Assembly (NCBI GenBank): GCA_031266365.1
Contig: JAISBE010000016.1
Location: forward strand, 1 to 53,720
Source of the DNA: Oscillospiraceae bacterium
Lineage (GTDB): Bacteria; Bacillota; Clostridia; Oscillospirales; Acutalibacteraceae
Length of the DNA: 53,720 nucleotides
Reading direction: 5' to 3'
In this document: piece by piece, positions 10,183-47,984 of the stretch
Position numbering within the stretch: position 1 is the first letter of the stretch
How the letters are laid out: each line of letters starts with the position of its first letter
Position numbers and translations under genes: made by a program
The notes under the pieces: model-generated
Told to the model about the DNA's origin: nothing
Database searches by the model: none
The model's input: the letters and a program-made list of their open reading frames with translations, nothing else

Positions 10183-11142
10183 ATGTTTAGTAAAAAAGTG
10201 AGATCTTTATTTTCTCATTTAGCAGTAAGCATATACGTCTATCTCCACATTTTATTATTCTCTACCTCAACATTCGCTCATAAGCCCGTGGGCATTTGCA
10301 ATATAGGAAATTCTTGCTATTTAAATTCCATTATTCAGGCATTATACGCTAATGAACATCTTAAAACCGTCATTTTAACGGTACCAAATCCTGATCCCCT
10401 TACTCAGCCAACCATTTATCTCTTGCAACAAATTTTCCAATCACTTGAGAGGAAAGATACGGCTTGTATAAACATTTCTCATTTGGTGCAAAATCCAGGA
10501 AATGGAGATATTTATAATGGCCTTCAACAGGATGCCAGCGAAACGTTGCAAATTATACTAAACACAGCTTTTTTTGAAATAAATAATCCCGCACACCCTA
10601 TAAATTTCATTTTTAATATAGAACTAGAAACAACCATTCACTGTCCTCATTGCGGGCAAGAAACTAAAAAAAATGAGACTGCGCTAACTCTCCCTCTCCC
10701 TCTTAGTCCCCGTTTGAGTACCTCTCTTACAAATTTCTTAGCACCTCCAGCGATAAGCGATTATTATTGCGAATTTTGTTGGAATTATGGCGTTTTAAGC
10801 AGAATAAACTTAACACCAAGCCAAACTTTAATTTTGACCCTGAATAGATTCGAGTATAAATCGGGCAAAATGATTAAACGCAATGATAAAATGGAATTTC
10901 CAGAAGAATTAAATATATGCGGCCATACTTATAAACTAAAATGTATAATAATGCACCATGGTGGATATTATAGTGGGCATTACTATGCTTTTATAAAGCC
11001 TTTAAACAGCACAACATGGTTTTTATGCAACGATAGTTCTGTGCGCAACGTGGGCAGCTTCAATGACATCAAACAATCATGTTTCGGCGACGGAAAAAGT
11101 TCACTCAATGCCTATATTTTATTCTTCGATCTAGTGTTGTAA
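10183..11142 (+). CDS. Secreted ubiquitin-specific protease (USP/UCH, C19)-like protein
   Basis: This 319-residue protein has a Sec signal peptide at residues 1-32 (KK, hydrophobic run, STFA cleavage) and a compact USP-type deubiquitinase fold. The Cys box GICNIGNSCYLNSIIQALYA contains the predicted nucleophile Cys45, after the USP consensus GLxNLGNTCYMNS. The USP zinc-ribbon cysteines appear as CPHC (C154, C157) and CEFC (C196, C199). The His box HHGGYYSGHYYAF gives His266, and LCNDSSV gives Asp284, the third triad residue. LTLNRFEY also matches the family's LxLxRF motif. Bacteria have no ubiquitin, so a complete, exported USP points to a substrate in a eukaryotic host. Origin by transfer from a eukaryote is inference. 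It is monocistronic, with an AAGAAGG ribosome site. Confidence 0.9.
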   Translation: MFSKKVRSLFSHLAVSIYVYLHILLFSTSTFAHKPVGICNIGNSCYLNSIIQALYANEHLKTVILTVPNPDPLTQPTIYLLQQIFQSLERKDTACINISHLVQNPGNGDIYNGLQQDASETLQIILNTAFFEINNPAHPINFIFNIELETTIHCPHCGQETKKNETALTLPLPLSPRLSTSLTNFLAPPAISDYYCEFCWNYGVLSRINLTPSQTLILTLNRFEYKSGKMIKRNDKMEFPEELNICGHTYKLKCIIMHHGGYYSGHYYAFIKPLNSTTWFLCNDSSVRNVGSFNDIKQSCFGDGKSSLNAYILFFDLVL

Positions 11143-20046: not shown

Positions 20047-20205
20047 ATGATTGATGACAAAGAGAAAAAGCTCGATGAGCTAAGTGAAGATGAACTCCTT
20101 TCTGCCTCTGGAGGAGGCGATATCGAAACTATATCTGCCGTTTGCATGCCCAGTGATGGCTCCGACCCCCAAGCCAACCCATTATATGGTGCTCCAACTA
20201 ATTAA
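20047..20205 (+). CDS. RiPP precursor peptide A (double-glycine leader)
   Basis: A 52-residue peptide. The acidic leader contains LDELSEDELLSASGG (Gly-Gly at residues 22-23), the classic leader of C39-processed peptides. The core of 29 residues has one Cys and ends NPLYGAPTN. It shares both the leader and the terminal LYGxP with precursor B. The GGAGG site five to six bases before the ATG is strong. The radical SAM enzyme encoded downstream is the likely maturase; which residues are modified cannot be told, but the shared LYGxP is the obvious candidate. Confidence 0.85.
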   Translation: MIDDKEKKLDELSEDELLSASGGGDIETISAVCMPSDGSDPQANPLYGAPTN

Positions 20206-20323
20206 GAAGAAAATCTTTCTAAATGTCGGCGCATAAAAAAGGCAAAAATAGAATTTATAAAACTATGCCTTAATAATTTTCTCAGATTATCTTAAAATTT
20301 TATTTATTAATTACATTTTTTTA

Positions 20324-20352
20324 TTGACTAATATAGTAATTCATGTTATTAT
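20324..20352 (+). promoter_or_regulatory. Promoter of precursor B and the radical SAM gene
   Basis: TTGACT, 17 bases, TATTAT, the duplicated form of the promoter at 19983. Confidence 0.65.
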
Positions 20353-20385
20353 ATTATAAAATATAAAAATTAGGAGGAATTAAAA

Positions 20386-20553
20386 ATGACTGATGACAAA
20401 GAGAAAGAGCTTAATGAGCTAAGTGAAAACGAGCTAAACGCTGGCTCTGGAGGAGTCGTTATCAACCCGGATGGCAAAATTGACAGGAAATCAACTGACA
20501 ATAGACCAAAAATGCTATATGGTATACCACCTATTAATATGCAGGAGGACTAA
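20386..20553 (+). CDS. RiPP precursor peptide B (double-glycine leader)
   Basis: A 55-residue peptide beginning MTDDKEKELNELSENELN with Gly-Gly at residues 22-23, matching peptide A through the leader. The core of 32 residues differs (no Cys; Asn, Lys and Asp rich) but keeps the motif as MLYGIPP near the end. The last codons (CAG GAG GAC) supply the Shine-Dalgarno for the radical SAM gene three bases later, so the two are translationally coupled. Confidence 0.85.
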   Translation: MTDDKEKELNELSENELNAGSGGVVINPDGKIDRKSTDNRPKMLYGIPPINMQED

Positions 20554-20556
20554 TTT

Positions 20557-21774
20557 ATGAATTATTACCCTCAAACTTGCGTTTGGGAAGTAACTATGGG
20601 TTGCAACATGAACTGCGGACACTGCGGTTCATCTTGCAAATACCCTTTACCAGGTGAATTAACATCTGCTGAAGCGCTCTCTTTCGTGGATATGTGCGTT
20701 GACATGAATTTGAAATGGGTCACCCTATCGGGTGGAGAACCACTAACCCGCAGTGATATCTGTTCAATCATCAAATATTGCAAGCAAAAGGGGCTTGCCG
20801 CAAACATTATAACCAACGGTTGGCTGATGACTGACGATTTAGCCAAAAAATTAAAATCTTCCGGCGTATCCACCGTTGCCATAAGCCTGGATGGTACTGA
20901 GGAAGTTCATGATAAAATAAGAAAAAAAGGGTCATTCGAGAGAATTAAAAACGCATTTCACATTTTGAAAAAGTATGATATTTTCACAGCTAGTATCACC
21001 ACCATAAGCAACTTAAATATAGCCCTTCTGGGTGAAATAAAAGATTTTTTGATATCAATGGGCGTGGATGTGTGGCAGCTGCAAATTGGACTGCCTATGG
21101 GAAATTTTTCTAAGCACCCAGACTGGCTGATAAAACCTGATAAAATAATAGACATAATAGATTTCTGCTACGACGCTGCCGTGGAAGGTAAAATTGGTAT
21201 ATGCCTCGCGGACTGTATGGGTTATTACAGCCGAAAGCAAATTGAGATAGACAAAATATATTTGCGTTCGAAAAACATCCCCCTTTGGGATGGCTGCCAT
21301 GCAGGCATTAGAAGTTTTGGAATGCTGCACAATGGAGATATTTTAGGCTGCACTTCAATAAGAGACAAAAAATTTATAGAAGGCAATATTCGCGAAAAAA
21401 CTTTAAGAGAAATCTGGGAGTCACCTGACACATTTTTATGGCGACGCAATTTCACCAAGGAAATGCTCGATGGCAATTGCAAAGTTTGTAAATATAGCAA
21501 AAAGTGCCTGGGTGGATGCACTAACACCAGGCTTGCTATAAATAAAGACATCAATTCCGACAACAAATATTGCACACACAGCATTTTAATGGATAAATTT
21601 AGAAATCAACTCGCATCAAGGGTAGATTCCGAAAATATACTAAACCACGCTAAAAATATGATAAACCAAAAATGCTACCAAGAGGCCAACCTATCTCTCG
21701 ATAGATTGATCGAACTTGAACCTGAAAATTCTGATTTTAAAAATTTAAAAAATTTCACTCATTCAATAATTTAA
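20557..21774 (+). CDS. Radical SAM/SPASM peptide maturase
   Basis: This 405-residue enzyme has the SAM-binding 4Fe-4S motif CNMNCGHC (Cys16, 20, 23), then the LSGGEPL and ISLDG segments of the radical SAM barrel. A SPASM-type C-terminal region carries auxiliary cluster cysteines in GCTSIR (about residue 265) and CKVCKYSKKCLGGC (about 308-321). SPASM proteins next to double-glycine precursors install C-C, C-S or C-O links in RiPPs. The last 45 residues form a TPR-like helical tail (AKNMINQKCYQEANLSLDRL) that could bind leader peptide; this is inference. It is coupled to precursor B. No peptidase/exporter follows. Confidence 0.92.
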   Translation: MNYYPQTCVWEVTMGCNMNCGHCGSSCKYPLPGELTSAEALSFVDMCVDMNLKWVTLSGGEPLTRSDICSIIKYCKQKGLAANIITNGWLMTDDLAKKLKSSGVSTVAISLDGTEEVHDKIRKKGSFERIKNAFHILKKYDIFTASITTISNLNIALLGEIKDFLISMGVDVWQLQIGLPMGNFSKHPDWLIKPDKIIDIIDFCYDAAVEGKIGICLADCMGYYSRKQIEIDKIYLRSKNIPLWDGCHAGIRSFGMLHNGDILGCTSIRDKKFIEGNIREKTLREIWESPDTFLWRRNFTKEMLDGNCKVCKYSKKCLGGCTNTRLAINKDINSDNKYCTHSILMDKFRNQLASRVDSENILNHAKNMINQKCYQEANLSLDRLIELEPENSDFKNLKNFTHSII

Positions 21775-29750: not shown

Positions 29751-31535
29751 TTATTCAGCACTTTCAATGCCCTCAGACTCTATTCTAACTGCCTCAAGCT
29801 TTTCTGCGCTTATCCACATAGCTGGCAACAGATTAGCACTTTCTTCTTTTGGCCATGTTCCTGGTCGCCCTCGGTTATCCACCACGCACACGTTGGCACA
29901 AGAAAATCCGGCTGTACGAAGCCAAAATCTGCATAACTTTATCAGGCCCCTATTCCGAGTTGCTATGGCTTGGCGTGCCTGTTGCTCAGGAGTTAACTCC
30001 TGGCAATATAGCGGGGATTGCAAGGAGCAAAAAGCCTTGTATTCTTGCCGACTTAAAAGAAAAACAAAGCAAGGCTCATAGCCATCTGGCACACCGTCGG
30101 GTACTGGTTTACTAAAGCCATTTGGGTCATTTTGCTCTATAATCGTCATACGTAAACTGTACTGACAGTCCTTTGGCACATCTGTAAGATCTACTGCGCT
30201 CAATGAACCTGAGCGCTCAACTTCACTGCAATTTCCCAATTTATGGTTTGCGTCACAATGAACAGCGCACCGTCTTAACGGTGAATCTTGAGGAAAACCT
30301 TCATACCAGGTGATTACGATTCTTTGCGCACCGGAACCAACATAAACATTGCTATCACCAAATGGAACCTTAAAGTTTCTATTCCGAAAATCTGGTTCAG
30401 CTACCTGCACGATGGGCGGTCCTTCAAGCAATAATTTTGGATTAAATTGCCCTCCAAAGTATGCTGAGCTTAATACTGGCGGTGAACCCGGCCTACTTTG
30501 ATCCAAAGGAAAACCACATCCTGATGTTGGTCGAGTAAATCTCGCGGGCGGTGAACCTGGCCTGACTCGCTCCAATTTTATTGATGACGGTTTATTTCTT
30601 CGCGCAGGCAGAGAACCTGGCCCGCCTTGCAAAGTTATTTCCCTAGCATCAAAAACTTGCAATACGTATGGTGCCGCAGAGCCTTCGGCGCCTGGCTCTA
30701 ACTCAGGTGATAGCACTGGCAATGAACCAAACTTTGACCCTGGCCTGCTTAGCGGAGGTCTTTCACCAGCATCTAAAACTGCCAATTCGAATTGTGCCGC
30801 AGGGTCTTCAGCGCCTGGCTCTGGCGGTACAAGTGGCGAGTCACCCTTCGGTCCAGGCAGCGCTGGTCGTCCCGCATCAAACTTCAACCTACTCCCACCT
30901 CGCCGCGAACGTGATGAGGGCGGTAAACCTGGCCTGCCTAGCGGGGGTCTTTTACCAACATCTAAAACTGTCAATTCGAATTGTGCTGCAGGGTCTTCAG
31001 CGCCTGGCTCTGGCTCATCTTGTGCTATACGTATCGGTTGCCTCCTATGCATGCGCTCTGGCAACGATCTTATCCGTGGGCTTCTTTCATCACCAAATCT
31101 AGGTCGCATTCCAGGCAGCGCCAAACTTTCGTCTGTGCTCGAAATCGAAGGGCTCTCCGCATCTAACTCAGGTGATAGCACTGGCAATGAATCAAACTCC
31201 GACCCTGGCCTGCCTAGCGGGGGTCTTTTACCAGCATCTAAAACTGCCAATTCGAATTGTGCCGCATGGTCTTCAGCGCCTGGCTCTAACTCAGGTGATG
31301 CTATACTTAACGGATTTTTATCGAGAGGATTGACTCTAACTATCAAGAAATACAATTTCCCTTCAATTTCTTTTTCGGCAATAACAATCCAGTCAGAAGT
31401 ATCACCTATAGATGCACCAGATATTCTATTTCCCGGAAGAGAAGCATCTACTATTTCAGGTATAGTAGCCAAAGTTTGAATACTGGCTCTCAAGCCTAAA
31501 AACAAAGCTATTATTGTGGATAATATTTTTTTCAT
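29751..31535 (-). CDS. Secreted protein with proline/glycine-rich repeats
   Basis: About 594 residues from MKKILSTII; the Met five codons earlier is possible, but a GGTGAT site favours this one. Signal peptide about 1-23. The region of about residues 75-300 contains at least four imperfect repeats built around PEPGAEDPAAQFELAVLDAG followed by RPPLGRPG and SLPVLSPEL. Further Arg/Pro/Gly-rich stretches (PGSPPA repeats) follow to about 350. The C-terminal 230 residues are non-repetitive with several Cys and a VTWYEGFP-like strand region (VITWYEGFP). No domain was recognised. The coding DNA is clearly more GC-rich than its surroundings. A host-directed surface or secreted factor is plausible but unproven. 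Confidence 0.8.
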   Translation of the reverse strand: MKKILSTIIALFLGLRASIQTLATIPEIVDASLPGNRISGASIGDTSDWIVIAEKEIEGKLYFLIVRVNPLDKNPLSIASPELEPGAEDHAAQFELAVLDAGKRPPLGRPGSEFDSLPVLSPELDAESPSISSTDESLALPGMRPRFGDERSPRIRSLPERMHRRQPIRIAQDEPEPGAEDPAAQFELTVLDVGKRPPLGRPGLPPSSRSRRGGSRLKFDAGRPALPGPKGDSPLVPPEPGAEDPAAQFELAVLDAGERPPLSRPGSKFGSLPVLSPELEPGAEGSAAPYVLQVFDAREITLQGGPGSLPARRNKPSSIKLERVRPGSPPARFTRPTSGCGFPLDQSRPGSPPVLSSAYFGGQFNPKLLLEGPPIVQVAEPDFRNRNFKVPFGDSNVYVGSGAQRIVITWYEGFPQDSPLRRCAVHCDANHKLGNCSEVERSGSLSAVDLTDVPKDCQYSLRMTIIEQNDPNGFSKPVPDGVPDGYEPCFVFLLSRQEYKAFCSLQSPLYCQELTPEQQARQAIATRNRGLIKLCRFWLRTAGFSCANVCVVDNRGRPGTWPKEESANLLPAMWISAEKLEAVRIESEGIESAE

Positions 31536-31770
31536 TACAAAAATCACCATATTTCTAAATAATATTACAAATACTTATAAAATAATTTTATCACGAACAT
31601 ATACATAACTCAATAAAAAATATATATTTAAAAAAAATTTTTAAAATCGTATAATTAAGCTGTAATATAAACAAAGCAATTAAATAATATTTATATATTC
31701 TAAATAAAAGTGTAAAATATCTATAACACAGATAAATGAGAATTTGTCAATTTTTAGGCCTTTTAGGCTC

Positions 31771-32043: not shown

Positions 32044-33051
32044 TCACTCTTCTATGGACATAGTCGCGCTGGCGTTTAAATCTAGTGAAGCTCTTTTTCC
32101 GGCGATATATTCATAATAGCCCTGAGAACCAACCATCGCAGCGTTATCGCCACATAAAGATAGCTGCGGCATATATAATTTTAGTGAGTTTTTTTCACAC
32201 TCGCTTTTTAGGTGTTCCCTTAAATGCGAATTTGCCGAAACTCCACCAGAAATTGCAAGTTTTTTATAATTATTATCCTTCGCTGCAGCTAAAAATTTGC
32301 TAGTTAAGCAGTCAACGATAGCATGCCTAAGTGAGGCGCATAAATCTTCTATTTTTATCATTTCGCCTTTTTGATGCGCATTATGGATTAAATTAACAGC
32401 AGCTGTTTTTAGCCCCGAAAAGCTAAAATCGTATAATGAACCTTTAACACTCGGTCTCGGCAGGAGAAACGCCTGCGGATCGCCGTTCTCTGCAATTTTA
32501 TCAACGTGCACCCCCCCTGGATAAGGAAGGCCCCTTGCTCTAGCAACCTTATCAAATACCTCTCCAGCGGCATCGTCTTTAGTCTTACCTATAACTTTTA
32601 ATTTCGTGTAATCAAGCACCTCCACAATGTGGCTATGCCCTCCTGATACAATCAAGCAGAGGAACGGCGGGGTTAGATCTTTGTGAGTCAGATAGTTCGC
32701 TGCGATATGTGAACGAAGATGGTGAACTGCAACCAGCGGCAAATCATTTGCAAACGCAGCCCCTTTCGCAAAATTTACGCCGACCAGCAATGACCCTATA
32801 AGCCCCGGTGCATGAGTAACTGCAATTGCATCGAGATCGCCAAAGCTGAGATCAGCTTTTTTCAATGCTGTTTGCACCACTTGCACTATCATCTCCACAT
32901 GTTTTCTCGAGGCAATTTCCGGGACAACCCCTCCATAAACTTCGTGATCTTTCACCTGTGAGGCAACAATCGACGACAAAACCCCTCTTCCGTCAGCAAC
33001 CACTGCCGCGGCTGTTTCATCGCACGAAGTCTCTATTGCCAGTATTTTCAT
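32044..33051 (-). CDS. tsaD: tRNA threonylcarbamoyladenosine transferase TsaD
   Basis: 335 residues of the Kae1/TsaD/Qri7 family, which attaches threonylcarbamoyl to A37 of ANN-reading tRNAs. It has LAIETSCDETAAAVV at the N-terminus, the metal motif HHLRSH (HxxxH) at about 108, SGGHSHIV, GEVFDKVARARGLPYPGG, FSFSGLKTA and ISGGVSANS, and a C-terminal GDNAAM. Complete and typical. TsaB and TsaE are not in the window. The 330 nt gap upstream leads into the peptide array. Confidence 0.97.
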   Translation of the reverse strand: MKILAIETSCDETAAAVVADGRGVLSSIVASQVKDHEVYGGVVPEIASRKHVEMIVQVVQTALKKADLSFGDLDAIAVTHAPGLIGSLLVGVNFAKGAAFANDLPLVAVHHLRSHIAANYLTHKDLTPPFLCLIVSGGHSHIVEVLDYTKLKVIGKTKDDAAGEVFDKVARARGLPYPGGVHVDKIAENGDPQAFLLPRPSVKGSLYDFSFSGLKTAAVNLIHNAHQKGEMIKIEDLCASLRHAIVDCLTSKFLAAAKDNNYKKLAISGGVSANSHLREHLKSECEKNSLKLYMPQLSLCGDNAAMVGSQGYYEYIAGKRASLDLNASATMSIEE

Positions 33052-33246
33052 TTTTTATCTCCCTCCATCAATTTGCAAACTTCGCGCTGCGTTGAGTTAT
33101 TTTTACTATAGCTAAACAAATAAAATTTATCACTACATCCTACTCCGGTACTACCATCCTCGACACCCTCACTCGTAGTGTGCCTTTTTATATTTTCAAT
33201 TATATCTTAAATATGTAGCTTTTACAAATTTAATTCTAAAATTATA

Positions 33247-33384
33247 TTGATATGCTATAAAATTTATTATATAATTAACTCATAAATATAATTAAACTAA
33301 TAAAATTTAATTATATTCTCACCCGGAACAGTAATTCACTAACCATATTTATATACGCTTGTTACTATAGAAAGGATGATTTCC
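33247..33384 (+). promoter_or_regulatory. Array cassette 1: promoter and 5'UTR
   Basis: TTGATA (33247-33252), 17 bases, TATAAT (33270-33275), inside the shared text TCTAAAATTATATTGATATG. An inverted repeat AATATAATTAA / TTAATTATATT follows at the start of the transcript. The 5'UTR ends GAAAGGATGATTTCC just before the ATG, as in the other cassettes. The second UTR hairpin seen in cassettes 2-4 is degenerate here. Confidence 0.8.
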
Positions 33385-33741
33385 ATGAGTAAAGCTGAAT
33401 TAAACACCACTGAGGAAGAGAAGCAAGACCAACCCGTCCAACTACTACCCGGCACTGGAATTGACGATATATCAGGAGGGTACAAACTGATAAAAGCAAT
33501 AAACCAGCAAAACAATAAAGTAATCTACGTAGGAGAAGTATCTGGTCAGCTCCTCTGGTCTTACGACCCAGAAGAACTAGACTTTATGCTGTACCGACTA
33601 AATCACTGCGAGCCACGGGAAATATTCTCGCAAACATCGTTAAAACCCATTGACATCACTAATGCGATAGAAGTAAAATCCCAGGATGCGTTCGATTTCA
33701 ATAACCCCACGTGGAAAAAACTAGAAGGAAGACCACGATAA
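33385..33741 (+). CDS. Array unit 1: double-glycine-leader protein
   Basis: 118 residues from MSKAEL; the ATG three codons upstream in the track of the frame overlaps the ribosome site and is unlikely. A 32-residue leader ends LLPGTGIDDISGG, a double-glycine site, followed by a core of 86 residues (YKLIKAINQQNNKVIYVGE, then LWSYDPEELDFMLYRLN). No known domain; beta-strand-rich at first, then charged. The N-terminal MSK(A/D)EL is shared with unit 4. Export and cleavage by a C39 peptidase ABC transporter is inferred from the leader. Confidence 0.75.
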   Translation: MSKAELNTTEEEKQDQPVQLLPGTGIDDISGGYKLIKAINQQNNKVIYVGEVSGQLLWSYDPEELDFMLYRLNHCEPREIFSQTSLKPIDITNAIEVKSQDAFDFNNPTWKKLEGRPR

Positions 33742-34074
33742 TTGTTAACAAAATACTTGCCAAAAAAATAAATTAAAGTGAAGATAGTTACGACAACGTA
33801 CCTCGGATGGCATCTACGACCGGTATCCTCCACCAAGCCAAAGAAACGGAGCAACTATGCCAAGAGCATACCACTCATGCGGTGACCAGGAGAACTTCCC
33901 ATACACTGTATGCCCCAATTACAATACCCGAATACATCCCCCGTATCCTAGATTGCTAACTATATGTTAAATGCGTCACCGCGCATTAATCGCAGTCAAT
34001 TTGATTATGCCTTTTTTTATCTCTCAAGCATATATTAAATATGCAACTTTTACAAATTTAATTCTAAAATTATA

Positions 34075-34216
34075 TTGATATGCTATAAAATTTATTATAT
34101 AATTAACTTATAAATATAATTAAATTAATACAAGTTAATTATATTTTTCAAACCGGAATGGTAGTTAATTACCATCCGAAATTATAAACATTTGTTTCAT
34201 AGAAAGGATGATTATC
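34075..34216 (+). promoter_or_regulatory. Array cassette 2: promoter and 5'UTR
   Basis: TTGATA (34075-34080), 17 bases, TATAAT (34098-34103). A 12-base-pair inverted repeat AAATATAATTAA / TTAATTATATTT follows. A second hairpin CGGAATGGTA / TACCATCCG (34154-34178) is next, then AGAAAGGATG as ribosome site. The CCATCC arm of the second hairpin is also complementary to GGATG of the ribosome site. The preceding gap (33742-34074) has no gene. Confidence 0.8.
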
Positions 34217-34537
34217 ATGTGTACAGATCAGCTAAATGCGAATAAAAACGTAAAACCGCAAAGTTTAACGAACATTAAAGACGTAGAATCGGTGAATGGT
34301 GCCGTGGGCCAGACCGAACGTATTACCGTCGGACGTTGCCCTGAGTATGAGGTAGGTGAGGACGGACAGCTAATCGCCACTGGCAAACAAGAATACTACA
34401 CGTTAAACGGGAAAAAACGCGCCTACTCAGACGACTTGAGTAAAGTAGCAGAATACCTGGAGTGTGCTGTAAAGGACCTTCGCATACTGCCATGCGACAG
34501 AGGACGACGCTTAGACCAAAATTTTACACGTTTGTGA
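34217..34537 (+). CDS. Array unit 2: Gly-Ala-leader protein
   Basis: 106 residues starting MCTDQL. The leader ends SLTNIKDVESVNGA (Gly-Ala at 28-29), an accepted variant of the double-glycine site. The core of 77 residues (VGQTERITVGRCPEYEVGED, then a Lys/Tyr-rich part with three Cys in all) has no known domain. Another frame stays open from 34462 to 34698 downstream (Pro/Thr/His-rich), so the gene may once have been longer and been frameshifted near its 3' end. GC content is well above the flanks. Confidence 0.65.
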   Translation: MCTDQLNANKNVKPQSLTNIKDVESVNGAVGQTERITVGRCPEYEVGEDGQLIATGKQEYYTLNGKKRAYSDDLSKVAEYLECAVKDLRILPCDRGRRLDQNFTRL

Positions 34538-34776
34538 CCGGCACAGGCCCTATACAATCAACTAGCTGTATCGGCGGCGTGGTACCGTTACTGTGCGTAT
34601 ATCCGAAACACGTGAACACGTCACTAACCGCGCATACAAACATGCCCGACACACTGCCTACTCACAGCAACCCAGGCCCGACTCACTTCACCCACTAAGA
34701 TGCTACGGAAATTACCGAGCAAGCCAGAAATATATGTCCTATCGATCACATTTATGCAACTAAATCTAAAGTTATA

Positions 34777-34919
34777 TTGATATGTTATTAAAATTTATTA
34801 TATAATTAACTTGTAAATATAATTAAATTAATACAAGTTAATTATATTTTTCAAACCGGAATGGTAGCTAATTACCATCCGAAATTATAAACATTTGTTT
34901 CACAGAAAGGATGATTTCC
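34777..34919 (+). promoter_or_regulatory. Array cassette 3: promoter and 5'UTR
   Basis: TTGATA (34777-34782), 18 bases, TATAAT (34801-34806). The rest is almost identical to cassette 2 over about 115 nt, with both hairpins (second at 34857-34881) and the AGAAAGGATGATTTCC leader end. Confidence 0.8.
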
Positions 34920-35078
34920 ATGAATCACGATCAATTGGAGCCGCAAACGAGAGAAAAGCCAAATCGAAAATCAGAATCGCAACCTAGAACTCTTACTGAA
35001 GATGAACTCACAGTATGCACTGGGGGAACATCGACCACAGGTCTAGAAGGGAGAAATCCAAATAAACCGCCAGGATAA
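34920..35078 (+). CDS. Array unit 3: short double-glycine-leader peptide
   Basis: 52 residues, MNHDQLEPQTREKPNRK and on to RTLTEDELTVCTGG (Gly-Gly at 35-36), then a 16-residue core TSTTGLEGRNPNKPPG. This is the most bacteriocin-like member: LTEDEL fits the LSxxEL consensus of double-glycine leaders and of the RiPP precursors at 20 kb. No Cys in the core. The ribosome site is the same as in its neighbours. Too short to be picked up by ordinary gene callers. Confidence 0.75.
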   Translation: MNHDQLEPQTREKPNRKSESQPRTLTEDELTVCTGGTSTTGLEGRNPNKPPG

Positions 35079-35262
35079 GCATCGCAAGGCCGGTCTTGAC
35101 TGGCAAAACATAGCAAACAATATGATCAAAACGGCATGTACATCAACATAGACTACTTTCGCCAGGACCGACTACTAACGACACTATCGACCATCACGCT
35201 GATAAATCACCAAAAAGATTATACCTTAACAAATTCTCCTCAAGTTTAATTTCAAAATTATG

Positions 35263-35403
35263 TTGATATACGACAAAATTTATTATATAATTAACTTATA
35301 AATATAATTAAACTAATAAAACTTAATTATATTTTTCAACCGGAATGGTAGCTAATTACCATCCGAAATTATAAACATTTGTTTCACAGAAAGGATGATT
35401 TCA
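35263..35403 (+). promoter_or_regulatory. Array cassette 4: promoter and 5'UTR
   Basis: TTGATA (35263-35268), 17 bases, TATAAT (35286-35291); both hairpins are present (second at 35341-35365); ends AGAAAGGATGATTTCA before the ATG. Confidence 0.8.
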
Positions 35404-35631
35404 ATGAGTAAAGATGAACTGAAATCCACGAACCCAAAAAGAAAAAAAGACACGGAAGCGTCAACAAAGCAGCAACTACCCATGAGGGACGATAGCGCTG
35501 TCACCGGTGGGGTACAAATCAACGATCAAAATGTTAAGTCTGGTCTAGCCCAAGGAATTCCCCGACCTCTGACGCGTGACGAAGATGATCAGACTAAATG
35601 CGGAGAATGGCGAACCATGGAAGAGATATAA
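35404..35631 (+). CDS. Array unit 4: double-glycine-leader peptide
   Basis: 75 residues from MSKDEL. A Lys-rich leader ends QLPMRDDSAVTGG (Gly-Gly at 35-36), then a polar core of 39 residues (VQINDQNVKSGLAQGIPRP..) with one Cys. No known domain. Start chosen by spacing to AAAGGATG; a Met three codons upstream overlaps that site. Confidence 0.7.
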   Translation: MSKDELKSTNPKRKKDTEASTKQQLPMRDDSAVTGGVQINDQNVKSGLAQGIPRPLTRDEDDQTKCGEWRTMEEI

Positions 35632-35885: not shown

Positions 35886-36086
35886 ATGGCGAGACGCTCT
35901 GTTACAAAATTTGCTGATGATCTATACGTAATAATAAACCAACTCGCGTCTCGCACCGACGTTGATCACGACAAATTATTTAACTATATATCATGTGTCC
36001 TTATACTCGAGTTAATTGACCAAAAATTGAAAATTGGATCGAACTCAGCTATATATTCCTTCATTCAGTCAAAAAAAGACTATTAA
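35886..36086 (+). CDS. Uncertain ORF in the array
   Basis: 66 residues (MARRSVTKFADDLYVIINQL..). No ribosome binding site, no cassette promoter and no leader. The composition is plausible for a helical protein, but I see no supporting evidence beyond the open frame. Confidence 0.25.
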   Translation: MARRSVTKFADDLYVIINQLASRTDVDHDKLFNYISCVLILELIDQKLKIGSNSAIYSFIQSKKDY

Positions 36087-36185
36087 GCAACGTTAGGGGA
36101 GCATATAGCAAAATTGTTCCTGTTTTTTAATTCTTTAACTTTGTCGTAAAAATAAAAATTTCGCATATTTAATTTTAAAATTATA

Positions 36186-36321
36186 TTGATATATAATAAG
36201 ATTTATTTTTCTAATTTATCTATGAAATAAATTAAAATTGATAAAATTCGTCTAAAAATATTTTAGACTTGGAATAATGCCTGATAGTATCGTAATTTAT
36301 CAGCATCTATTAAGTGGAGAG
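36186..36321 (+). promoter_or_regulatory. Array cassette 5: diverged promoter
   Basis: The AAAATTATATTGATAT block recurs (TTGATA at 36186-36191), with a weaker -10 (TCTAAT at 36210). The 5'UTR no longer resembles the others but also contains an AT-rich hairpin (TAAAAATATTTTA near 36252). It leads to a very short ORF after GTGGAGAG. Confidence 0.55.
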
Positions 36322-36417
36322 ATGCTATCCGTACAAATTAATAAAATAAACCAACAAATCTCAAGTAAGGCAGATAAAGCTAAAGACAAAATCAATTCCG
36401 CAAATAAAAACCAATAA
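36322..36417 (+). CDS. Array unit 5: possible 31-residue peptide
   Basis: MLSVQINKINQQISSKADK and on, a lysine-rich amphipathic helix with no double-glycine site. Supported only by position behind a cassette promoter and a GTGGAGAG site. Confidence 0.4.
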   Translation: MLSVQINKINQQISSKADKAKDKINSANKNQ

Positions 36418-36531
36418 TTTCAGCTATAGAATGTATCCAAAAAACAGATACCTTGTAGTGTTAACCTTACCTAGCTCTATGCCAAAAGTCGCCTTAAAAC
36501 GTTTTTTTGCATATTTAATTTTAAAATTGTA

Positions 36532-36560
36532 TTGACATATAATAAAATCTATCATATAAT
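36532..36560 (+). promoter_or_regulatory. Array cassette 6: promoter of zinc-finger unit 1
   Basis: TTGACA, 17 bases, TATAAT, within the same TTTTAAAATTGTATTGACAT block. The 5'UTR is short (about 50 nt) and ends AGAAAGGATGGTATTT, keeping the array's ribosome site but not the hairpins. Confidence 0.8.
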
Positions 36561-36618
36561 TAATTTATAATGAATATAATTTCTACAATCTTACTCAAAT
36601 TTAGAAAGGATGGTATTT

Positions 36619-36936
36619 ATGCCAAAAACAACAAAATTGTTGCCATTAGATGACCTTGCACTAGAATCGGTCAGCGGCGGAACACACGTAACGGCGGCTA
36701 CAAAGAGTGGATGGCGCCACATAAGTGCGGAGACATGCGGGGGAGGAGCGCCATGCATCAGCCGTTTCAAATGCGACACATGTGAGAAAAAATCGGTCGC
36801 ACAAGAAACGATGAAAAACCACTGTACTAACGTACATGGAATAGACAATCCCGAAGAGGTGGGCTGTTGGATTTGCGATGCAGACCATACCCCATTAAAT
36901 GTATTAGACCATCCAGATATACAAACTTTTACATAA
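36619..36936 (+). CDS. Array unit 6: double-glycine-leader C2H2 zinc-finger protein
   Basis: 105 residues. Leader MPKTTKLLPLDDLALESVSGG with Gly-Gly at 20-21. The core contains FKCDTCEKKSVAQETMKNHC.. with C52-x2-C55-x12-H68-x4-H73, the exact spacing of a eukaryotic C2H2 finger, with an aromatic residue two before the first Cys and Met65 in the usual hydrophobic position; Ser59 replaces the usual Phe. A second Cys pair (C83, C86) with H90 or H98 may form a degenerate second finger, and C40/C46 precede the first. The finger shares HCxNVH with unit 7. In eukaryotes such fingers bind DNA, RNA or protein. Export followed by action in a host cell is inference. Confidence 0.8.
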   Translation: MPKTTKLLPLDDLALESVSGGTHVTAATKSGWRHISAETCGGGAPCISRFKCDTCEKKSVAQETMKNHCTNVHGIDNPEEVGCWICDADHTPLNVLDHPDIQTFT

Positions 36937-37056
36937 TAAGGACAAAAATAAAAGTATAAAAATGTTAAGAAACAGTTAATTACTTGTAAAATATTTGCAA
37001 ACACCAGCATATATTATGAGATCTTATAATAAACTGAATAACAAAGAGGGATACAT

Positions 37057-37326
37057 ATGGACAAACAAAAACGCCGCTCACACACCACCGAAACAAATAA
37101 AACGGTGCTTCCTGATTCGGCGACGGCGCTTTGTGCAGGTGGCTTAAACTATCTCGACAAAATGAAAGTATGCGACGTTACCGTTACGAATGATGGTGGT
37201 GGTGAGGATATAATCTATACTTGTTGCGAGTGCAAAGCAGAGTTCAACACACCAGGGCGACTAACACGGCATTGTCTGAATGTTCATAACGGCCATGCAT
37301 GGATACGTTCACAAAATGAAGGTTAA
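37057..37326 (+). CDS. Array unit 7: double-glycine-leader C2H2 zinc-finger protein
   Basis: 89 residues. A basic N-terminus (MDKQKRRSHTTETNK) leads to VLPDSATALCAGG with Gly-Gly at 28-29. The core has YTCCECKAEFNTPGRLTRHC..: Y54-x-C56-x2-C59-x3-F63-x5-L69-x2-H72-x4-H77, a perfect match to the classical C2H2 consensus including the core Phe and Leu. The finger's helix region (PGRLTRHCLNV) carries Arg residues at plausible contact positions. Start follows AAAGAGGGA. No cassette promoter is directly upstream, so it is probably transcribed with unit 6, 120 nt before. A terminator hairpin lies at 37609. Confidence 0.8.
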   Translation: MDKQKRRSHTTETNKTVLPDSATALCAGGLNYLDKMKVCDVTVTNDGGGEDIIYTCCECKAEFNTPGRLTRHCLNVHNGHAWIRSQNEG

Positions 37327-38103: not shown

Positions 38104-38838
38104 TTAGATGACATATCCGCCATTAGGACTGATAACCTGGCCCGTTATGAAGTCTGCTTTGCTTGAGGCTAAAAATAAAATCGTATTTGCAATGTCGGCT
38201 ACAGTGCCCAAGCTTCTCAGCGGAGTTTTCGCTTTTAATGCGTCCAATATCGCTTTTTCACAATCGGCGTTCATATCTGTATCGATCACACCGGGTGCCA
38301 CACAGTTTACCTGAATGCTAGATGGACCGACTTCCTTCGCCAACGCCTTGGTAAACCCTATGATTGCTGCCTTTGACGCAGAATACGCTGTTTCGCACGA
38401 TGCTCCACACATCCCCCAAATAGATGAAATATTAATGATTTTACCGCTGTGTCTGCGCAACATGTTAGGTAAAACTGCTTTGCAGCAATGGAATGTCCCT
38501 TCGACGTTCACCGCAAAAAGTCTTTTCCAGTCTTCGAATTCGGTTTCAATTAGCAACTTTTCCTCAGCCACGCCTGCATTATTGACTAATACATCTATTT
38601 TGCCGAATAAATCTTCAACAGATTTAAACATGTCAACAACCGCTTGCGGCTCAGAAATATCTGCCTGGATAGCAATAGCACTGTGATGGCCTGATGTGAG
38701 CTCAGCTGCGAGTTTTTCTGCTTTAAGCTTCGAATTGAGATAATTTATCACAACGTTAAAGCCCTCATATGCGAAAAATTTGGCTGTCTCTCGCCCGATA
38801 CCGCGTGAGGCACCGGTGATTACTACTGTTTTATCCAT
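38104..38838 (-). CDS. fabG: Short-chain dehydrogenase, FabG-like
   Basis: 244 residues, NAD(P)H-dependent, best match the 3-oxoacyl-ACP reductase type. TGASRGIG (about residues 8-15) binds cofactor, NNAG at about 88-91, Ser in INISSIWG and the YSASK motif (about 152) form the active site, followed by VNCVAPGVIDTDM and the C-terminal ISPNGGYVI. No other fatty-acid genes adjoin it, so a different substrate cannot be ruled out. An AGGGAGG site precedes the ATG. Confidence 0.88.
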   Translation of the reverse strand: MDKTVVITGASRGIGRETAKFFAYEGFNVVINYLNSKLKAEKLAAELTSGHHSAIAIQADISEPQAVVDMFKSVEDLFGKIDVLVNNAGVAEEKLLIETEFEDWKRLFAVNVEGTFHCCKAVLPNMLRRHSGKIINISSIWGMCGASCETAYSASKAAIIGFTKALAKEVGPSSIQVNCVAPGVIDTDMNADCEKAILDALKAKTPLRSLGTVADIANTILFLASSKADFITGQVISPNGGYVI

Positions 38839-44856: not shown

Positions 44857-44899
44857 CATAATGAAAAATCATGTTGGTACCAATGATATTTTCATTATG
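44857..44899. promoter_or_regulatory. Inverted repeat upstream of exported family member 1
   Basis: CATAATGAAAA(A)TCA..TTGGTACCAA..TGATATTTTCATTATG: about 14 paired bases on each side, ending 33 nt before the gene. The same outer arms CATAATGAAAA / TTTTCATTATG recur at 46160-46197. Could be an operator, an mRNA leader hairpin or a terminator without a strong U tract. Confidence 0.65.
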
Positions 44900-44932
44900 A
44901 AAAATTTTATTAATCTTATAGGAGAATACATC

Positions 44933-45817
44933 ATGTTATCTAAGAAAATTAAAAAAAGAGCGACCAGCCTATCTTTAGCAGCACTTGCTTTTGGCAGTTT
45001 AATTCCATCCGTGGCATATGGATTTAACAATGTGGATGTTGAAAAAGCTGCTGATGAAGTTTTACAAACCGCAAAAAGCCTTTCGACCAATTTTGGTGGC
45101 AATCCCGACCAAATATACACCTCATTAGTCAAGCAACATCGCACAGAGTTCAATCATAATCCCACAGTACTATCCACTGACGAGTTTCATGCACGAACTG
45201 AGGACGTTCGATATCTCGCCGTTAGCCCCACACCAGATGGACCATTAACACATTTACCGCGTTTAACGGTTGACCCCGACTACCGGGTAAACAAGCAACC
45301 TTTGAGTGTTTACAAACGCGCACGACTCGCGGACCTCCATCCCGGCGAAGCCGCGGTACAATGCGCAGAGTGGGCTGGTACGTTCTTCACGGCAGCGGGT
45401 GGTAATATAACTATAGCACAAGTGGCACTGGATCCACAGAGTAAAATAGTTGAGAGACCCTTTTTAAACACAGTACAAGACCAGCTTAAAAAAATGCTTT
45501 CCAGGGAATTTAATCTTGAGAATCCTCAAACACGTGAGCAAACATTTTTAGCTTACATTGCTAATAATCAGTTTTTTGGTACGCAATCACTCGCCTTGAT
45601 ATTGGGCTATGACGCAATAGAAGATGCACACGCACAGAATGAGGCATTTAGCACCGACATACTAAATTATGGGAAATTACTTGTGTGCCAGGAAACAATC
45701 GAAACACCTAACTCCGGACCCATAGCTTGCCATACGATAGCACTCGGAGGAGGATGGTTTGCTGACTCACCAGACGATCATGATGATGGAAAACCTGTAC
45801 TTTTTCAATGTAAGTAA
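44933..45817 (+). CDS. Exported family protein 1 (paralogue of 47025)
   Basis: 294 residues from MLSKKIKKRATSLSLAALAF (signal peptide to about residue 30, SVAYG). The start follows AGGAGAATACATC; the frame continues upstream, but without a site. The mature part aligns with the 47025 protein: an N-terminal helix with (V/I)xxAAxEV, a PTV(L/I)xTxxF segment, then YLAVS versus YRGIS, AVQCAEW versus ISACAQYW, and IAQVALDP versus IASVAFDQ. Function unknown; see the 47025 entry for a tentative fold idea. Here the Arg of YRG is Leu, so if that idea holds this member would be inactive. Confidence 0.75.
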   Translation: MLSKKIKKRATSLSLAALAFGSLIPSVAYGFNNVDVEKAADEVLQTAKSLSTNFGGNPDQIYTSLVKQHRTEFNHNPTVLSTDEFHARTEDVRYLAVSPTPDGPLTHLPRLTVDPDYRVNKQPLSVYKRARLADLHPGEAAVQCAEWAGTFFTAAGGNITIAQVALDPQSKIVERPFLNTVQDQLKKMLSREFNLENPQTREQTFLAYIANNQFFGTQSLALILGYDAIEDAHAQNEAFSTDILNYGKLLVCQETIETPNSGPIACHTIALGGGWFADSPDDHDDGKPVLFQCK

Positions 45818-46553: not shown

Positions 46554-46871
46554 ATGTTACCTACAAAAATAAAAAAGAGAATCATCGGCATAGCTTTCGC
46601 TTGGGTCACCCTTGGTTGCAACCTTATACCCACAACGACTCTGGCGCACGATTTGAAACCATTTTCCACCTACACCGACGGTTTATTTCGGCCAATTTCT
46701 CGAGGCGCGAGGAGTAACATGACCAATGCTGATCGTATACCGTGTGACGACAATGGTTTTTGGCAACCAAACAATCCGGCGAATGGCGGTTGGGGAAATC
46801 AGGTTGTCGATAATAATGCGCCGCGGCATCCATTGGATGTTGCCCAGAACCGGAGAACTTTTGGGCAGTGA
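46554..46871 (+). CDS. Exported family protein 4, short
   Basis: 105 residues with the same signal peptide (MLPTKIKKRIIGIAFAWVTL, cut after TLAH) and a mature part of about 73 residues rich in Asn, Arg, Pro and Gly with one Cys. Does not resemble its neighbours outside the signal peptide. AGGAGG site; 61 nt after the previous gene. Confidence 0.7.
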   Translation: MLPTKIKKRIIGIAFAWVTLGCNLIPTTTLAHDLKPFSTYTDGLFRPISRGARSNMTNADRIPCDDNGFWQPNNPANGGWGNQVVDNNAPRHPLDVAQNRRTFGQ

Positions 46872-47024: not shown

Positions 47025-47984
47025 ATGTTATCTACGAAAATAAAAAAGAGAATAATCAGCCTATCTTTCGCAGGGTTTGTTTTTGCCAATTTGGTTTCAT
47101 TTGAGACGGCGCACTCATTTGGCGAGCAACAAATAAAAGCAGCTGCCTTGGAAGTTTATAACAATACTTTGAGACTTTATGGAGCTAAATTTGCAAATAA
47201 TCCGTCGATAGATGATCTTAGTGATATTAAAGTGGTAAGCAAATTAGCAAGAGATTTTTTCAATCCCAGCTTTAATGGTCTACCCACCGTGATACCTACC
47301 GAACAATTTAATGAAATTCCAGGAGATCAAAAATACTATAGAGGTATATCTGCTTACGAGACGGAAAATCCAGATGGGACCAAACAGAAAGTGCCGGCGA
47401 AAACATTGTTTGAACAATTCACTACAGGTGAATACTTTCCAGGGCAAGCTTACGGTGGCATTTGGCTTTCTAAGTCCGGTTGGTACAGCGATTTACGGCC
47501 AGGACAACTTATAAGTGCATGCGCTCAATACTGGGCTAGAGTGAATTGTCCAACTCGCGAAGATGAGGGAATTATAGCTAGTGTGGCATTCGATCAACAT
47601 AAATTAAAAATTATTAAAAAAAGTGAGCTAGATAAGATAAACACAGAATACCACGCGTTGATTCCAGAGGTGTTTGACAATTCCAGGGTACGCGCACCAT
47701 GGGAAAATTTTATGTATATTGTTGGTATCCCTGGTGAAGCTGGAGATAAAATCCGAGCCGAGCTTTTAAAGCAGCAAGGAATATGGATAGACGACGGCAC
47801 TAACACTTATAGCGTAATACTAGATCGCAGCGCATTATCTGTTGAGGCAACTTGCTCACCCGTAAAAGCACAAAAGCAACCTGAAGGCATTGATGTTATG
47901 GCGCTCGGAGATGATTGGTATTCGGTGCCATCAAATAAGGGCACTGTACCACCTGGAATTATCAGGTTTAGTGAAGCCACTTAG
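47025..47984 (+). CDS. Exported family protein 5 (paralogue of 44933)
   Basis: 319 residues. Signal peptide MLSTKIKKRIISLSFAGFVF cut near TAHS. The mature part contains YYRGIS, then FEQFTTGEYFPGQAYGGIWLSKSGWYSD and ISACAQYW and IASVAFDQHKLKIIKK, and a C-terminal beta-rich end. The order Y-R-G, then G-G-I-W-L-S, then V-A-(x)n-K-I-I loosely recalls the R-S-E type ADP-ribosyltransferase scaffold, but no catalytic ExE or QxE could be pinned down, so this is only a lead. AGGAGGG site. It ends 25 nt before the ABC operon. Confidence 0.75.
   Translation: MLSTKIKKRIISLSFAGFVFANLVSFETAHSFGEQQIKAAALEVYNNTLRLYGAKFANNPSIDDLSDIKVVSKLARDFFNPSFNGLPTVIPTEQFNEIPGDQKYYRGISAYETENPDGTKQKVPAKTLFEQFTTGEYFPGQAYGGIWLSKSGWYSDLRPGQLISACAQYWARVNCPTREDEGIIASVAFDQHKLKIIKKSELDKINTEYHALIPEVFDNSRVRAPWENFMYIVGIPGEAGDKIRAELLKQQGIWIDDGTNTYSVILDRSALSVEATCSPVKAQKQPEGIDVMALGDDWYSVPSNKGTVPPGIIRFSEAT

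Follow-up and report, generated by a model that had tools for sequence, protein, structure and literature searches.

What would a bacterium do with C2H2 zinc fingers, regarded as a eukaryotic module, behind double-glycine (GG) leaders, regarded as a mark of bacteriocins and signalling peptides? The question is raised by two adjacent short genes (gene 1 and gene 2) in a stretch of 53,720 nucleotides, here called the window, from an Oscillospiraceae bacterium of the Acutalibacteraceae (GCA_031266365.1, contig JAISBE010000016.1, our contig C3), whose genome comprises 1,101,550 bases in 22 contigs and is 98.7% complete. The answer that we favour, with a probability of about one half, is that GG-leader C2H2 proteins are cut and exported by the single C39 peptidase-transporter of this genome and work extracellularly as small fingers that bind proteins.

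An earlier note on this DNA had described the motifs of the pair, and its description holds to the residue. Gene 1, whose best start is at 36619 with a ribosome-site-like GAAAGGATG 5' of it, has its glycine pair at residues 20-21, followed by C52-x2-C55-x12-H68-x4-H73. In gene 2 the pair stands at residues 28-29 and the core reads C56-x2-C59-x3-F63-x5-L69-x2-H72-x4-H77; HCxNVH is common to both. The core positions of the finger (an aromatic residue at C-2, Phe and Leu) are all found in gene 2 and in part in gene 1, which has Phe at C-2, Ser for the Phe and Met for the Leu. GG, the four ligands, F63 and L69 are all retained in a metagenome protein that is 93% identical to gene 2. The six positions at which the two differ comprise four leader residues and residues 67 and 70 of the predicted helix.

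The two genes are real, but the earlier account of them was incomplete, since the genome holds a repertoire of 41 GG-leader genes over at least six contigs (37 first listed from the window and fetched stretches, three more on C6 and one on C10), two of which, C12:30777 and C10:28726, have their leader interrupted by a stop codon. Searched against the genome, a ten-leader profile matches 29 places (E up to 10) and a profile of 19 family members matches 36 (E up to 1); C8:76763 and C22:31085 are weak own-genome matches to the family profile. The pattern C-x2-C-x(8-30)-H-x(3-5)-[HC] occurs in 16 of the 41 cores, the interrupted C12:30777 included, so that homologues with kept Cys and His, on which the earlier proposal depended, are present in these paralogues as well as in the metagenome protein. 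Among the first 37 cores the pattern is found in 14, against a mean of 0.39 and a maximum of 3 in 2000 shuffles, and the strict form C-x2-C-x12-H-x3..5-H in three (both window genes included), against a mean of 0.02, with none of 2000 shuffles reaching three. Because the patterns were drawn up after some cores had been seen, a test by leader alone is the fairer one: the ten-leader profile's 29 places include 19 non-seeds, and by hand count nine of these 19 carry the motif. A chance origin of the motif is rejected by the shuffles and by this leader-only test.

Positions that the search pattern did not require are also kept, with one of L, I, V, M, F, C or A at H-3 in 16 of 16 motif cores and an aromatic residue at C-2 in 13 of 16. 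A 12-residue spacer is common to the window genes, C12:33319 and C8:116519; two C6 genes have one of 11 residues, and in the others it spans 18-30. The finger-bearing cores are 52-97 residues long. Several further cores keep C-x2-C and L-x2-H and have no fourth ligand (C6:4150, C9:5590, C9:7577 and C6:12114), and the finger is absent from the rest, a few of which are acidic and free of Cys. Within arrays, 62 of 65 gene pairs (cores of 20 residues or more) are more alike in the leader than in the core, and two C12 neighbours have identical 32-residue leaders and cores that are 12% identical. Read from the sequences, this contrast and the interrupted copies would fit a repertoire under birth, death and diversification.

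The likeness to C2H2 fingers is borne out by profile searches of the PDB. Profile A3, built from the 19 family members, gives a best E of 8.6e-11, nearly all of the best 60 of its 220 matches being C2H2, and profile A5, without window genes or members of classical spacing, gives 1.4e-8, with the matches listed mostly C2H2. A control profile of GG zinc ribbons (A6), on the other hand, has no C2H2 among its 10 matches (best E 0.057). A Pfam search, to which the earlier note had looked for zf-C2H2 families, gave for both genes matches under the curated cut-offs (gene 2: PF13894, 19.4 against 27, and PF00096, 10.7 against 25.2; gene 1: PF23223, 16.8 against 27). The fold that it had expected is the one modelled, since AlphaFold2 predicts a beta-beta-alpha finger for both window genes. 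Foldseek lists are led by Kaiso C2H2 fingers and are mostly C2H2, with matches that are not significant, and one model aligns with a BCL11A finger at 0.3 A across 26 columns (Foldseek); VIA lists are mixed. Methyl-CpG-binding domains and archaeal ribosomal proteins also appear in the VIA and Foldseek lists.

A GG leader carries hydrophobic residues at -12, -7 and -4 and then the glycine pair, and by this rule gene 1 is canonical (L-12, L-7, V-4, GG). Most paralogue leaders are strong. A leader profile was built from 29 leaders, none of them in the window array, and searched against the 1606 open frames; 38 of its best 39 frames end in GG or AG, although those same 29 were its training set. Whole proteins were searched for in the same frames with a profile of 13 paralogues that excluded the window proteins and fingers of classical spacing; it recovers gene 1 at E 8.7e-6 (rank 23) and gene 2 at E 8.6e-4 (rank 32), two of its best 40 frames appear to be remnants of GG-type genes and the rest are such genes, and the first other frame stands at rank 41 or below.

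The earlier note had linked such leaders to C39 peptidase-transporters, and the genome does encode one, its single C39 match lying at C1:6191-8347 (E 3.2e-38). This peptidase-ABC (ATP-binding cassette) protein is of NHLM type (TIGR03796, 918.1 against a cut-off of 853.3), the catalytic Cys, His and Asp are all present at what we take to be their positions, and a partner ABC subunit matches TIGR03797 (724.3 against 709.4). The NHLM genes lie at L008:3903-8905 on contig C1, apart from the arrays, together with a HlyD-like partner (L008:8360-8905) shortened to 181 residues (TIGR03794, 50.8 against 156.2, the best stretch covering 59 of 421 model positions). No NHLP or Nif11 leader domain was found in four precursors from the window and C12 (E up to 0.1) or in ten array precursors (E up to 1). 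This transporter is the only candidate found, and is the predicted exporter, for these leaders.

How widely is the design distributed? No match at E 0.01 or better beyond the own genome was found by single-protein search of 98 genomes, and profile A3, with at most 12 candidates scored per genome, matched nine genomes of the 398 in the family (E 0.001), this one among them. Three of 394 genomes, again counting this one, matched in an order-level search, and of the 13 genomes from which NHLM loci came, six matched at E 0.05. Three protein searches of 5.8 billion sequences returned the query alone, four own-genome proteins with P0006, and six own-genome proteins with P0011. The GG-leader C2H2 genes for which the earlier note had proposed to search related genomes did not appear at the loci read, GG-like frames at 11 loci of the eight other family genomes matched by A3 having no C2H2 core (three loci gave no frame); in two relatives, G258 and G412, such frames have zinc-ribbon-like cores of CxxC type. 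A metagenome-assembled genome (MAG) of Pelotomaculum encodes at L092:16715-16951 a GG protein with C-x4-C...H-x5-H, a possible finger outside the lineage, because of which the design is perhaps not unique.

The relative G258 (2.6 Mb, same family) bears on the possible origin of the fingers. At L181, L190 and L193 it carries arrays of GG proteins, 11 of them aligned, with a well-conserved C4 zinc ribbon WHYECPxC...MHxG...LYCDPC. Leader, beta-strand and first CxxC knuckle align with our family (hhalign 95.4%, E 1.9e-8 with leaders); on cores only the support is suggestive (50.6%, E 1.6e-4). Unlike the fingers, the ribbons have CxxC and not H-x3..5-H as their second ligand pair, and their profile fails to reach C2H2 fingers. 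From these alignments, GG zinc ribbons may be the source of the fingers, the first knuckle being retained and the second ligand pair altered. They also point to a wider theme, and GG proteins with CxxC-rich cores adjoin several other NHLM transporters. At L095:6809-10742 and L101:6039-7484, in MAGs of uncultured Clostridia, GG proteins likewise form arrays beside NHLM genes, and several of these proteins contain repeated CxxC pairs. No open-licence paper was found that joins a C2H2 zinc finger with a double-glycine leader, or a peptidase-containing ABC transporter with a zinc finger; by title and start of abstract, none of the open-licence papers with both double-glycine and zinc finger concerns such proteins, and for double-glycine with zinc ribbon the listing gives one paper, on a Treponema peptide.

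We turn now to how such proteins might act. The leader would dock on the C39 transporter, the C39 domain would cut it off after the glycine pair, and the finger would leave the cell and fold on zinc. The zinc site would hold a tiny scaffold with variable loops and a variable helix face, which could let each paralogue bind a different partner. Proteins are likelier partners than DNA or RNA because the net charge of each of the 16 fingers lies between -5 and +1; among 37 cores, 29 have a negative net charge, and DNA-binding fingers are basic. A eukaryotic host may supply these partner proteins, given the reduced genome and its gene for a eukaryote-type ubiquitin-specific protease (USP). Where the earlier note had proposed action on host nucleic acid or protein, the charges thus speak against the nucleic acid, and the protein half is drawn from the 1.10 Mb genome and the USP. 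A bolder version, which we hold tentatively and with less than even confidence, is that this bacterium has adapted a bacteriocin export route to deliver single C2H2 fingers, a diversifying library in which each paralogue is aimed at a different host protein.

The USP, at 10183-11142 of the window, scores 129 bits with PF00443, has by eye a signal-peptide-like N-terminus and finds USP47 as its nearest PDB match (E 4.7e-19). It occurs in the own genome and in three of 97 relatives, and all four genomes measure 1.0-1.3 Mb. Takahashi et al. 2023 (PMC10579323) describe a small-genome clade of Acutalibacteraceae that includes protist endosymbionts and whose eukaryotic-like genes, at least 20 of 42 with signal peptides, include ubiquitinyl hydrolase domains; neither 'zinc' nor 'bacteriocin' occurs in the main text. 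Our genome resembles that clade in its small size and its eukaryotic-like gene and, judged from two relatives with an ATP/ADP translocase, probably belongs to the same family. The closest relatives of the transporter in the genome collection are 60-67% identical, and the top three are Oscillospiraceae MAGs, probably from termite guts, as read off their isolate codes. Because of the small genome, the occurrence of the USP in four genomes of 1.0-1.3 Mb and the small-genomed clade with protist endosymbionts, host-directed effectors would be our first choice and bacteriocins the second.

Several results weigh against exported, host-directed fingers. Against the leader profile built without the window array, the gene 1 leader scores 6.6 bits, which is barely over background and places it 38th among the 1606 open frames. 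The gene 2 leader keeps L-12 and GG but carries T (-7) and C (-4) and falls outside the best 70 frames, so that taken alone it is weak. What the earlier note had called double-glycine leaders stands for gene 1 by the rule and for both as whole proteins recovered by the paralogue profile, and falters on the leader scores themselves. Furthermore, an ATP/ADP translocase, found in two of 60 searched genomes, is absent from the own genome, which sets it apart from the energy parasites of the clade and makes the host a guess.

The rival with the most to say for it, although we consider it unlikely, is that these are bacteriocins or contact toxins, that is, zinc-stabilised antibacterial mini-proteins released through the C39 transporter against competitors in the same niche. 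Bacteriocins usually leave the cell by way of a GG leader and a C39 ABC transporter, the decayed copies and the greater likeness of leaders than of cores would suit an arsenal for antagonism, and a GG zinc-ribbon array is present in a relative with a genome as large as 2.6 Mb. No immunity gene was recognised, however, among the two small window-array frames examined for it, and a reduced genome with a eukaryote-type ubiquitin protease sits poorly with such an arsenal. It is far less probable that the proteins are precursors of ribosomally synthesised and post-translationally modified peptides (RiPPs), in which the Cys and His would be enzymatically modified and no zinc site would form. NHLM transporters are described together with modified peptides in PMC2887384, and in the window (20047-21774) two GG precursors do accompany a radical SAM-SPASM enzyme; but by eye no modification enzyme stands beside the C2H2 genes in C3, C12, C9, C10 and part of C6 (C8 and the rest of C6 lie outside this survey, and no genome-wide maturase screen was made), and the hydrophobic positions of the finger, needless in a modified peptide, are kept.

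Marginally less probable again are exported zinc carriers or scavengers, zincophore-like proteins in which the finger is a mere metal site: ribbons and fingers with several ligand sets within one leader class would agree with this, but diversified surfaces and many paralogues would be needless, and ligands are altogether lacking in some array members. The least probable reading is that of cytoplasmic DNA-binding regulators of the Ros/MucR type in which the GG is coincidental. These are, as stated in PMC9779718, the known bacterial C2H2 proteins; the spacer is nevertheless 12 and not 9 in both window genes, no Ros/MucR match was found in the Pfam scans run, the cores are mostly acidic, and the GG or AG endings of 38 of the best 39 leader-profile frames speak against coincidence, with the reservation that 29 leaders went into that profile. 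We retain exported, protein-binding fingers as the preferred reading.

The window pair closes a six-gene array in which every leader is of GG type; the genes start at 33385, 34217, 34920, 35404, 36619 and 37057 (Table 1). On the minus strand, what we take to be a tsaD-like gene (32044-33051) and a short-chain dehydrogenase-like gene (38104-38838) flank the array. A promoter-like repeat of 66 bases occurs in six copies with 62-100% identity to the reference copy, and the first four genes share a longer conserved 5' region (83-94% to the reference copy). RNA folding of one 5' region gave a z of -2.45. The small frames 35886-36086 and 36325-36417 inside the array match no Pfam family.

Table 1. 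Features of the GG-leader array in the window (positions in the 53,720-nucleotide stretch)
Feature	Position	Strand	Remarks
Promoter-like repeat copy, 5' of 33385 gene	33220..33285	+	family D2, 98%
GG-leader array gene	33385..33741	+	core 86 residues, without finger motif
Promoter-like repeat, reference copy, 5' of 34217 gene	34048..34113	+	
Array gene, NGA replacing GG	34217..34537	+	core 77 residues, without finger motif
Promoter-like repeat copy, 5' of 34920 gene	34750..34815	+	62% ungapped; 94% across 162 bases
GG-leader array gene	34920..35078	+	core 16 residues; leader 25.9 bits in profile trained outside window array
Promoter-like repeat copy, 5' of 35404 gene	35236..35301	+	83%
GG-leader array gene	35404..35631	+	core 39 residues
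Promoter-like repeat, no clear GG gene after	36159..36224	+	68%
Promoter-like repeat copy, 5' of gene 1	36505..36570	+	83%
Gene 1, C2H2 core	36619..36936	+	105 residues, leader 36619-36681
Gene 1 finger FKCDTCEKKSVAQETMKNHCTNVH, residues 50-73	36766..36837	+	AlphaFold2 model, block confidence (pLDDT) 86-88 (51-70), 80 (71-80)
Gene 2, C2H2 core	37057..37326	+	89 residues, weak GG leader 37057-37143
Gene 2 finger YTCCECKAEFNTPGRLTRHCLNVH, residues 54-77	37216..37287	+	AlphaFold2 model, block pLDDT 83-90 (residues 41-80)

Elsewhere in the window, tandem GG-leader precursors (20047-20202 and 20387-20551), each with a promoter-like stretch, lie directly 5' of the radical SAM-SPASM enzyme (20557-21774) and form a separate RiPP-type cluster. 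Three neighbours at 44861-45817, 46554-46871 and 47025-47984 have by eye similar signal-like N-termini, the two longer ones matching no Pfam family over cut-off, and the same holds in Pfam for a repeat-rich protein of 599 residues (29751-31550) with a signal-like start and PEPGAED repeats.

Sixteen GG-leader finger proteins in one genome would be a new class of substrate for C39 transporters and a natural library of minimal zinc-scaffolded binders; if host-directed, they would also represent an effector route without an injection machine. Among known systems, class II bacteriocin and ComC precursors share the GG leader, and one paralogue reaches 15.6 bits with TIGR01847 (cut-off 15.7), but the 16 finger cores here are 52-97 residues with a metal-site motif, and the two frames tested gave no immunity gene. 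The NHLM/NHLP export system (TIGR03796/TIGR03797/TIGR03794; Haft et al. 2010, PMC2887384) is matched over the cut-offs by both ABC subunits; the precursors tested, on the other hand, match no NHLP or Nif11 leader model, the HlyD-like partner is truncated and the arrays are not clustered with the transporter. Ros/MucR proteins share a bacterial origin and C2H2 ligands, and differ in being, as PMC9779718 describes them, DNA-binding regulators with a 9-residue spacer and a larger bbbaa domain. The window proteins resemble eukaryotic C2H2 fingers (zf-C2H2; ZBTB17/Miz-1, Kaiso, Aart) in the spacing C-x2-C-x12-H-x4-H, the aromatic residue at C-2, the Phe and Leu of gene 2 and the predicted beta-beta-alpha fold. 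Eukaryotic fingers are joined by linkers of the TGEKP type, which these proteins lack, whereas here a lone bacterial finger stands behind an export leader, in cores that are mostly acidic, with loops of 18-30 residues instead of 12 in many paralogues.
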